Assembly: GCF_003752365.1 (NCBI RefSeq)
Contig: NZ_RJUO01000003.1
Span: forward strand, 124,001 to 188,000
DNA: 64,000 nucleotides
Source of the DNA: Frondihabitans sp. PhB188
Lineage (GTDB): Bacteria; Actinomycetota; Actinomycetes; Actinomycetales; Microbacteriaceae
Direction: 5' to 3'
Shown here: positions 401 through 64,000 of the stretch, one piece after another
How positions within the stretch are numbered: position 1 is the first letter of the stretch
How the letters are laid out: every line of letters starts with the position of its first letter
Notes under the pieces: generated by a model
Seen by the model: only the letters and a program-made list of their open reading frames with translations
Database searches by the model: none
What the model was told of the DNA's origin: nothing
Position numbers and translations under genes: made by a program

Positions 401-1255
401 ATGTCGTACATCGTCACCGCCTCCTCGGGCCACCTCGGCGGCCTCATCGTCGACGCGCTCCTCGCCCGCGGCGCCGCCCCCGACAGCGTCGTCGCCACCG
501 CGCGCGACACTGCCAAGATCCAGGCATTCGCCGACCGCGGCATCACCACCGCGACCCTCGACTACTCGAAGCCCGAGACCATCGCCAGCGCCATCGGGGC
601 CGGCGACACCGTGATCCTCGTGTCGAGCGACGCCGTGGGCCAGCGGCTCGAGCAGCACTCCGCCGTCGTCGACGCCGCGAAGGCCGCCGGCGCCGCGCGC
701 ATCATCTACACGAGCGCCCCGAAGGCCGACGACACCGCGCTGATCCTGGCGCCCGACCACAAGGCCACCGAGGAGTACATCGCCGCCTCGGGCGTGCCCT
801 TCACGTTCCTGCGCAACGGCTGGTACACCGAGAACTACGCGGGCGAGGTCGCCAAGGGCCGCGACTCGGGAGAGATCACGGCGAGCGTCGGCGAGGGACG
901 CGTCGCCAGCGCCAGCCGCAAGGACTACGCCGAGGCCGCCGCCGCGGCCGCGCTCGACGAGTCGACGACGGGCAAGACGTACGAGCTCTCGGGCGACTCC
1001 GCCTGGAACTGGAACGAGCTCGCCGAGACCATCTCGGGCATCGTCGGCACGCCCGTCGTGTACCGCGCGCTGACGCCCGAGGAGCACGCCGCGCAGCTGG
1101 CGTCGTTCGGCCTCGACGAGGGCACGGTCGGCTTCGTCGTCGCGCTCGACGGCAACATCCGCGACGGCCTGCTCGAGGCCACCTCGGGCGACCTCACGGC
1201 GCTCATCGGCCGCCCGACGACTCCGCTCGCCGAGGGCCTCGCCGCCGCGCAGTAG
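401..1255 (+). CDS. NmrA/QorB-like NAD(P)-dependent oxidoreductase, 284 aa
   Basis: A Rossmann-fold protein of the NmrA/SDR-a type, beginning with a beta strand and a glycine-rich loop (VTASSGHLGG, residues 4-13). This matches NAD(P)H:quinone reductases such as QorB, which are about 285 aa. A middle segment with ILVSSDAVGQR and a later TFLRNGWYTENY are typical of the family. The ATG at 401 is chosen because it directly precedes the nucleotide-binding motif and has GAAAGGA upstream; a longer in-frame extension from 308 would run through the promoter. It probably reduces quinones or reactive carbonyls under control of the adjacent HxlR protein. The stop codon is itself the start of a 15-bp tandem repeat. 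Confidence 0.85.
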   Translation: MSYIVTASSGHLGGLIVDALLARGAAPDSVVATARDTAKIQAFADRGITTATLDYSKPETIASAIGAGDTVILVSSDAVGQRLEQHSAVVDAAKAAGAARIIYTSAPKADDTALILAPDHKATEEYIAASGVPFTFLRNGWYTENYAGEVAKGRDSGEITASVGEGRVASASRKDYAEAAAAAALDESTTGKTYELSGDSAWNWNELAETISGIVGTPVVYRALTPEEHAAQLASFGLDEGTVGFVVALDGNIRDGLLEATSGDLTALIGRPTTPLAEGLAAAQ

Positions 1256-1353
1256 CGGCTGACGCAGCAGCCGCCCACGCAGCAGCCGCCCACGCAGTAG
1301 CGGCTGACGCAGCAGCCGCCCACGCAGCAGCCGCTGCGCAGCATCCGCCGACG
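1250..1353. repeat. 15-bp tandem repeat, about 7 units, starting at the reductase stop codon
   Basis: Units of the form CAGCAGCCGCCCACG and CAGTAGCGGCTGACG follow each other with a 15-bp period from 1250 to 1353; one unit is 14 bp. The CAGTAG variant recurs after three units (1250 and 1295), suggesting 45-bp higher-order duplication. The first unit contains the stop codon of the upstream gene. If the stop were absent the array would read as Ala/His-rich pentapeptides. Confidence 0.85.
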
Positions 1354-1356
1354 CAC

Positions 1357-1392
1357 GAAGACGCCCCCTGCCTTGCGGCAGGGGGCGTCTTC
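1357..1392. terminator. Bidirectional hairpin terminator
   Basis: A perfect 16-bp inverted repeat (GAAGACGCCCCCTGCC and its complement) encloses a 4-nt loop TTGC. It lies between the converging reductase gene (ends 1255) and the small gene ending at 1403, so it can serve both. Confidence 0.85.
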
Positions 1393-1402
1393 GCGGTGAG
1401 CC

Positions 1403-62816: not shown

Positions 62817-62887
62817 GACATCAAGGCTGTCGGGGGCGCAGGAACGGGACCACGTCCGTCCGGCCAAACTCCGTCGTCCGCGCGGAC

Positions 62888-63000
62888 GAGATCGGCCCTG
62901 CAACGGACGGCCGAGATCGGCCCTGCAACGGATGGCCGAGATCCGTCCTGCAACGGACGGCCGAGATCGACCCCGCCCCGGACCGCCGAGATCGGTCGGC
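62888..63000. repeat. 25-bp tandem repeats, about 4.5 copies
   Basis: Units beginning GAGATCGGCCCTGCAACGG start at 62888, 62913, 62938 and 62963, with a partial fifth at 62988. The first three are nearly identical and the fourth is diverged. They fill the 200-bp spacer between the amidohydrolase and the acyltransferase, both on the minus strand, so they are upstream of the acyltransferase. Confidence 0.9.
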
Positions 63001-63019
63001 CGTCCGGACGATGCGCCGG

Positions 63020-64000
63020 CTACAGGGCGCGGTGCGTGAACCGCCCGCCGAGCAGCGTCGCCGCCACGGGCATCGTGCGGAGGGCCTCGGGATCGCCCGC
63101 CAGCGGGTCGGCGTCGAGCACGACCAGGTCGGCGAGGCTGCCGGCCACGACGGACTCGCGCCCGTCGGTCGACGACGCGAGTGCCACCGCCGGGGTCAGG
63201 CGCTGCTCGGGGTGCCACGGCTCGCGGCCGTCGCGGGCCCGCGTCACCGCGGCCGCCATCGCGACCCAGGGGTCGAGGGGCGCGACCGGGGCGTCCGATC
63301 CCAGCCGCAGCGGCACCCCCGCCGCCACGAGCGAGTCGAGCACGAACGCCCGGCCGGTGCGGCCGGCCCAGTACACCTCGGCGATATCGCGGTCGTCCAT
63401 CGCGTGCTCGGGCTGCACGCTCGCCACGATGCCGAGGGCGGCGAACCGCGCCACGTCGGCGGGACGCAGCAGCTGGGCGTGCTCGATCGACCCGCGGCAG
63501 CCGACGGCGGCGAAGGCGTCGAGGGCGACGGTGTTCGCGCGGTCGCCGATGGCGTGCACCGCCAGGTCGAGGCCGTGCTCGTGGGCCCGGCCCATCAGGC
63601 CGGTCAGCTCGTCGACGGAGAACGACGGGATCCCTACGCCGCCGCCGACCGGGTACGGGTCGTGGCAGTAGGCCGTGCGGGTGTTGAGCGAGCCGTCGGT
63701 GATGATCTTGGCCGGGCCCATGGTCACCAGGCCCTCGGTGCCCGGGATGACGTCGCCCGTGCGCAGGCGCCGAGCGATCACGGCGTCGAGGTCTGCGGGG
63801 TAGACCCCAGGCCGGACGCGGAGGGCGCGGGTTCCTGCGCCCACTCTCTCGGCCCAGGCGTCGATCGAGAGGGTCATCTCGAGGTCGACCACGCCAACGA
63901 CCCCGCGGGCGGCCGCCGCCGCCGCCGCTTCGCCGACCCACTCGTCCATGCGCGAGCTGTCGATCGCCGTGATGATGCCCGACGCGTCGAAGGCGGCCTG
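63020..64000 (-). CDS. Amidohydrolase family protein (YtcJ-like), 5' end outside window
   Basis: The frame is open to the right edge, so about 326 C-terminal residues are visible. It shows the amidohydrolase-3 pattern: KIITDGSLNTRTAYCHDPY, AVHAIGDRANTVALDAF with the metal-site His and Asp, IEHAQLL, and LGSDAPVAPLDPW; the final SLADLVVLDADPL is the small beta domain that closes these enzymes. YtcJ-like proteins are metal-dependent hydrolases of unclear substrate. The ATG at 63949 is internal: the conserved upstream sequence (AFDASGIITAIDSSR) continues in frame. Confidence 0.88.
   Translation of the reverse strand, partial: QAAFDASGIITAIDSSRMDEWVGEAAAAAAARGVVGVVDLEMTLSIDAWAERVGAGTRALRVRPGVYPADLDAVIARRLRTGDVIPGTEGLVTMGPAKIITDGSLNTRTAYCHDPYPVGGGVGIPSFSVDELTGLMGRAHEHGLDLAVHAIGDRANTVALDAFAAVGCRGSIEHAQLLRPADVARFAALGIVASVQPEHAMDDRDIAEVYWAGRTGRAFVLDSLVAAGVPLRLGSDAPVAPLDPWVAMAAAVTRARDGREPWHPEQRLTPAVALASSTDGRESVVAGSLADLVVLDADPLAGDPEALRTMPVAATLLGGRFTHRAL

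Follow-up and report, generated by a model that had tools for sequence, protein, structure and literature searches.

What is the role of a 10-base word, GCGCAGGAAC, that recurs 20 times on both strands, within and between genes, in a single 64,000-nucleotide stretch of Frondihabitans sp. PhB188 DNA? This stretch, hereafter the window, comprises positions 124,001 to 188,000 of contig NZ_RJUO01000003.1 (C3:124001-188000 in our numbering of the genome, G000, which spans 3.79 Mb in 10 contigs). The key fact is invisible from the window alone: other species spell the same word with other letters. We consider it probable that the full 14-mer form, GGGCGCAGGAACTC, represents this species' own dialect of a dispersed self-recognition word read for DNA uptake, a reading reached by comparative analysis of the sequences.

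All 20 starts of GCGCAGGAAC listed in the original prediction are exact, as against a mean of 0.24 and a maximum of 2 copies in dinucleotide shuffles; the extension to GGGCGCAGGAAC occurs 12 times in the window, matching the earlier count, and the 14-mer 7 times. Genome-wide there are 734 copies (391 and 343 on the two strands; about 190 per Mb) versus 7 (6 and 1) of the reversed word. The 97 sites in 464 kb yield the consensus G-G-GCGCAGGAAC-T-[CG]-[GC], with a weak C-rich, G-poor stretch downstream, no strongly conserved position further out, and no sequence common to the copies beyond the word itself. Within genes, its 9-mer form, CGCAGGAAC, occupies either strand and every one of the six registers. 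The motif survives synonymous-codon shuffling across all called genes, a procedure that preserves both the proteins and the codon counts: in 573 kb of called coding DNA we count 131 copies (73 sense, 58 antisense) versus a mean of 12.6 and a maximum of 19 in 100 shuffles. The earlier claim of a signal at the DNA level, as opposed to codon bias, is thus borne out by a 10-fold excess. Comparable shuffles in two congeners gave 117 versus 8.1 copies of CGCAGGATC in G006, and 121 versus 10.0 of CGCAGGATC and 127 versus 21.7 of CGCAGGAGC in G001. In the own species, CGCAGGAAC is about 2-fold denser outside called genes than inside them (0.487 versus 0.245 per kb), a ratio that is not general, being about 1 for CGCAGGATC in G002 and for CGGATGCC in G107, a member of another genus.

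The spelling of the word is specific to the species. Among 99 genomes, GCGCAGGAAC stands in the hundreds above background in the own species only, with 14-39 copies in its six congeners (G001-G006, which together with it make up the seven Frondihabitans genomes) and 1-117 in the 92 other genomes. The congeners instead carry 392-1749 copies each of CGCAGGATC, which numbers 344 in the own genome and, setting aside one genome (G052, 407 copies), 7-231 in the non-Frondihabitans genomes. Counts from samples of 100-664 kb give each species one or two leading spellings: CGCAGGAAC followed by GCAGGATC in the own species; GCAGGATC in G005 and G006; GCAGGATC and GCAGGAGC in G001; GCAGGATC with some CAGGATGCC in G002; GCAGGATGC and GCAGGAGC in G003; and CAGGATCC, GCAGGATC and AAGGATCC in G004. 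An AGGA core is common to all seven, and the ending differs. We rejected restriction-driven loss of GATC as a cause of the T-to-A switch, GATC being at expectation in the own species (6966 versus 7109 in 464 kb). The genome G052 belongs to another genus of the family; it holds the highest CGCAGGATC count of the 92 and has CAGGATCCTG 8 times in 60 kb, which is possibly a similar dialect in a second genus.

A related word extends across the family Microbacteriaceae. CGGATGCC exceeds its reversed control at least 5-fold in 75 of 150 family genomes (the own species and two congeners included) and in none of 111 genomes from other families of Micrococcales, reaching 4093 copies, about 950 per Mb, in G185. 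In G107 (20 stretches, 400 kb) it occurs 297 times versus 55 in 50 codon shuffles; in Frondihabitans it lies near the shuffled background (26 versus 20 in the own species, 10 versus 10 in G003). A k-mer scan of single 20-kb loci, which are small and noisy samples that we used only after the codon control, has GGATGC-type words standing out in Herbiconiux, Galbitalea, Cryobacterium, Microbacterium, Agrococcus, Glaciihabitans, Zimmermannella, and Agreia, weak in Subtercola and Leifsonia, and not standing out in the loci from Rathayibacter, Amnibacterium, Curtobacterium, and four samples from outside the family. A further spelling is seen in two Agrococcus loci (L138, L144), with GGATGCGT at 13 versus 0.8 and CGGATGCG at 22 versus 3.5 in synonymous shuffles. 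We infer that the Frondihabitans words may descend from the family word CGGATGCC via the intermediate spelling CAGGATGCC.

The main words lack replication-linked polarity. In the complete genome G001 (25 stretches, 500 kb; origin at dnaA, 3.087 Mb, with the terminus taken as opposite), the leading-to-lagging counts are 80:81 for CGCAGGATC and 75:88 for CGCAGGAGC, with 261:178 for genes as a control of the origin placement; in G107, with the terminus assumed opposite dnaA and a GC skew that lends the origin position no independent support, they are 179:169 for CGGATGCC and 216:155 for genes. As for how copies arise, we compared 264 kb of the own contig 3 with G006 (81% identity). Of the 78 CGCAGGAAC sites, 44 have coverage in G006, 30 ungapped and 14 gapped; most of these are therefore not insertions. 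The ungapped sites include 23 that are comparable by codon, 6 outside called genes, and 1 with a gap in the codons. Among the 23, 8 show no amino-acid change (one of them an unchanged word) and 15 do; silent examples are Ala-Gly-Thr at window position 40289 on the minus strand (GCA GGA ACT versus GCG GGC ACC in G006) and contig position 268278, also minus (GCA GGA ACT versus GCC GGC ACC). We assume a gain in the own species rather than a loss in G006. Own CGCAGGATC sites are kept in G006 at 10 of 20 covered places, and CGCAGGATC is presumably the older dialect.

All seven Frondihabitans genomes have matches to ComEC and to a PilC-type T2SSF protein. In the own species, ComEC adjoins a ComEA with SLBB and HHH domains, and a pilus locus (C4, L232) codes for PilB (which carries MshEN), another T2SSE ATPase that is PilT-like by gene order, PilC, a prepilin with an N-methylation motif (the major pilin), a second such pilin of 228 aa, two further putative minor pilins of 450 and 603 aa without Pfam matches (judged by their N-terminal sequence and place), the prepilin peptidase PilD, and PilM. 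ComEA and the pilus-locus genes have BLAST counterparts in the six congeners; in G005, several genes of the pilus locus and of the com region are interrupted by frame changes, probably a fault of the draft. While PilB and PilC are 95% and 94% identical between the own species and G006, the three minor pilins are only 38%, 37%, and 45% identical: two of them lie below all 177 reciprocal-best protein pairs from the 264-kb stretch (median 81%, none at or below 38.3%) and the third at the 1.1 percentile. Comparisons with the remaining five congeners give 31-53% identity for the minor pilins.

We prefer the class of uptake sequences because of the abundance of the word, the absence of polarity, its use on both strands and in all registers, its origin by base change, its dialects with a shared core, and the presence of com genes and of a pilus whose minor pilins are divergent. 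In the mechanism that we infer, a surface DNA receptor, most likely a type IV minor pilin and possibly ComEA, would bind the word; DNA of close kin, once bound, would preferentially enter via ComEA and ComEC and then recombine. An uptake bias favoring matches over near-matches would spread the word through repeated transformation, irrespective of strand and reading frame, and a shift in the specificity of the receptor would let it drift, giving rise to the dialects (CAGGATGCC, CAGGATC, CAGGAGC, and CAGGAAC).

This class fits better than any other that we considered. The DNA uptake sequences (DUS) of Neisseriaceae and the uptake signal sequences (USS) of Pasteurellaceae are words of about 9-12 nt that occur on both strands without a replication-linked orientation bias, as do the main words here, and overabundance, dialects around a core, and genes for a type IV pilus with ComEA and ComEC are likewise found. 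The Pasteurellaceae USS possess an extended AT-rich tail, for which the own word offers no more than a weak C-rich equivalent. The HIP1 element of cyanobacteria, another abundant word dispersed in and between genes, resembles ours in these respects; however, HIP1 is palindromic, in contrast to the asymmetric Frondihabitans word with its species dialects. In Neisseriaceae, eight DUS dialects have been described that vary about a conserved inner core, some genomes having two of them, with up to thousands of copies, and ComP is the DUS-specific binding protein (PMC3630211). The short, many-copy word and its dialects around a conserved core are shared with that system, from which ours differs in its unrelated sequence, its high-GC actinobacterial host (Actinomycetota), the concentration of Frondihabitans sites in variable DNA, the lower density in the own species (even though CGGATGCC is far denser in G185), and an uptake bias that is here only proposed. 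The Pasteurellaceae USS, of which two types around a conserved core are described (PMC12616744), are similar in having a core with variants and unrelated in both sequence and phylum. We file the putative uptake word as uptake-sequence-like, rather than as a member of the class.

Several observations weigh against an uptake word. The positions of its copies are poorly conserved: of the 44 covered sites, G006 has CGCAGGATC at 3 and the unchanged word at 1. Short unaligned stretches have the highest copy density (712 per Mb versus 220 in aligned DNA); the two longer unaligned blocks on the chromosome (4 kb or more) are not depleted (7 sites in 14.2 kb), and unaligned blocks of G006 hold 20 sites in 58.7 kb versus 407 per Mb in aligned DNA. 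The distribution of sites is thus unlike that of a strict core-genome mark. Scarcity on plasmids and in foreign DNA would favor uptake, and a plasmid of Frondihabitans sp. PAMC 28766 (contig 2 of G002, identified as NZ_CP014514.1 by 20 kb at 100%) has 9 CGCAGGATC copies in 200 kb (45 per Mb) versus 29 in 100 kb of chromosome (290 per Mb), but its GC content is also lower (0.643 versus 0.693); no CGCAGGATC was found in 20 kb from G005's second contig. The longer form ACGGATGCC is tilted towards the leading strand in G107 (40:23, P = 0.04).

The gene evidence has its own weaknesses. ComEC is present in 58 of 60 relatives, so that its presence does not discriminate, and it too is divergent, at 51% identity between the own species and G006 (2.3 percentile). 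The comEC of PAMC 28766 (L231; G002:C1:2981383-2982173) matches in two adjoining frames, pointing to a frameshift or a sequencing error. Matches to TadE are weak in three Frondihabitans genomes and absent in four, and fast evolution of pilins can also have other causes. An association of the family word with the pilus speaks for uptake but is imperfect: across 30 family genomes from other genera, the CGGATGCC excess is higher in the 13 with a PilC-type gene than in the 17 without (P = 0.004; P = 0.045 for genomes above 2.2 Mb), with a PilC cut-off that was set after the values had been seen, no correction for kinship, and some genomes incomplete; moreover, 5 of the 17 still show at least a 5-fold excess and 3 of the 13 do not.

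The alternative that survives best, which we regard as unlikely, is a binding word for a protein that organizes the chromosome or marks it as self in defense, acting independently of orientation and with a fast-changing specificity. A genome-wide, non-polar word with near-random spacing (coefficient of variation 0.89) and spellings that differ by species would suit such a protein, which does not, however, predict divergent minor pilins. The known organizing words KOPS and AIMS, while also short, asymmetric, and dispersed, are polar from origin to terminus; the strand counts in G001 and G107 do not fit such words and leave the AIMS-like suggestion of the original prediction without support. Its more general suggestion of a protein-binding site is the best broad description of the putative signal.

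We consider it rather improbable that the word acts like Chi, by halting a nuclease-helicase (AddAB, AdnAB, or some other) of species-specific recognition and initiating recombination at double-strand breaks. Like Chi, the word is short, asymmetric, frequent, and genome-wide, within and between genes; the scarcity on a plasmid and the leading-strand tilt of ACGGATGCC would also agree. Known Chi words, however, are strongly skewed to the leading strand, a bias that the main words lack in both genera, and RecC, the Chi-reading subunit of RecBCD, was matched in none of 37 Microbacteriaceae genomes; the Chi-like label is not supported either. The idea of a very small mobile repeat copied to new sites, to which the high copy number in one species only and the 14 gapped 9-mers could be credited, is very improbable, being contradicted for most sites by the 30 ungapped ones that differ from G006 by substitutions and by the 8 silent coding sites, and the copies share no sequence outside the word. 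The chance that codon usage or base composition alone produced the copies is negligible: TTC CTG CGC and GCG CAG GAA CTC are indeed ordinary codons, and the genomes from outside the genus do show a background of copies, but the excess over synonymous shuffles refutes this origin and the own copies are denser outside called genes.

The 20 copies in the window are distributed with 14 inside genes called by a simple purpose-made gene caller (8 on the strand of the gene and 6 on the opposite one) and 6 outside. The copies opposite to their genes lie at 805..814 (minus; the aligned place in G006 has CGCAGGATC), 10169..10178 (plus), 15094..15103 (plus; the 9-mer CGCAGGAAC is identical in G006), 17142..17151 (plus), 33696..33705 (plus; CGCAGGATC in the G006 alignment), and 59313..59322 (plus). 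Those on the same strand as their genes are at 4893..4902 (plus; read as GCA GGA ACG, with CGCAGGATC aligned in G001), 17226..17235 (minus), 38203..38212 (plus), 43118..43127 (plus; GCG CAG GAA CTC), 45345..45354 (minus; CGCAGGATC in G002), 48267..48276 (plus), 61576..61585 (minus), and 63831..63840 (minus; CGAAGGATC in G004). Outside called genes are the copies at 31447..31456 (plus; overlapped by an uncalled open reading frame of 686 aa without a Pfam match), 36612..36621 (minus), 40721..40730 (plus; CGCGGGATC in the G006 alignment), 50718..50727 (minus; GCGCAGGATC in the G006 alignment), 57711..57720 (minus), and 62836..62845 (plus). The copies at 17142 and 17226 face each other; inverted pairs acting as terminators were rejected as the main role, as 5 neighboring pairs are less than 100 bases apart among 179 gaps and 4.9 are expected. 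A hairpin suggested by GGCGCAGGAACTGCGCC at 31447 was likewise dropped, C being commoner than G after the T.

Other features of the window deserve mention in their own right. A peptidase M3 gene (46518-48578) is split by an in-frame stop at 47574-47576; both halves match PF01432, and the second one contains the motif copy at 48267. Next to this gene, at 48579-49220, GC-rich palindromic units (GAGGTGGCC ... GGCCACCTCG) form an intergenic array whose six 50-nt copies are at 63% or above and which matches many other places in the own genome at 67-85%; GGCCACCTCGGC occurs 11 times in 664 kb of the own genome (7 in the window) versus once in 300 kb of G006, and the array is possibly a second dispersed repeat. 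A near-perfect palindrome of 58 bases at 43690-43747 (opposite-strand self-match 93%), after a called gene ending at 43662, is perhaps a terminator. No copy of GCGCAGGAAC falls within 50728-57710, a possible genomic island where three tRNA genes lie at 53719-54959 and GC drops to its window minimum of 0.63 (52-56 kb).

Among the open-access papers listed by our searches, none reported this motif, and a search for uptake sequences in Microbacteriaceae gave no paper. Neisseriaceae and Pasteurellaceae are the only families known for uptake sequences according to a 2025 paper (PMC12616744). Within Actinomycetota, Flp pilus (tad) genes are needed for natural transformation in Micrococcus luteus, whose genome also carries comEA and comEC; that study does not use the phrase 'uptake sequence' (PMC4322843). 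Given the genomic patterns described above, we incline, somewhat more guardedly than for the word itself, to the view that Microbacteriaceae have a third, independently evolved uptake-sequence system, in which the family word CGGATGCC would have drifted into the Frondihabitans dialects read by fast-evolving minor pilins, restricting exchange to close kin. If so, this would be the third case of uptake sequences and the first outside the two known families, with several dialects in a single genus, rendering the co-evolution of receptor and word directly testable. It would also mean that sequence selectivity is possible for a monoderm's type IV pilus, provide a DNA tag that may raise the transformation of hard-to-modify strains, and point to natural transformation across a large bacterial family.

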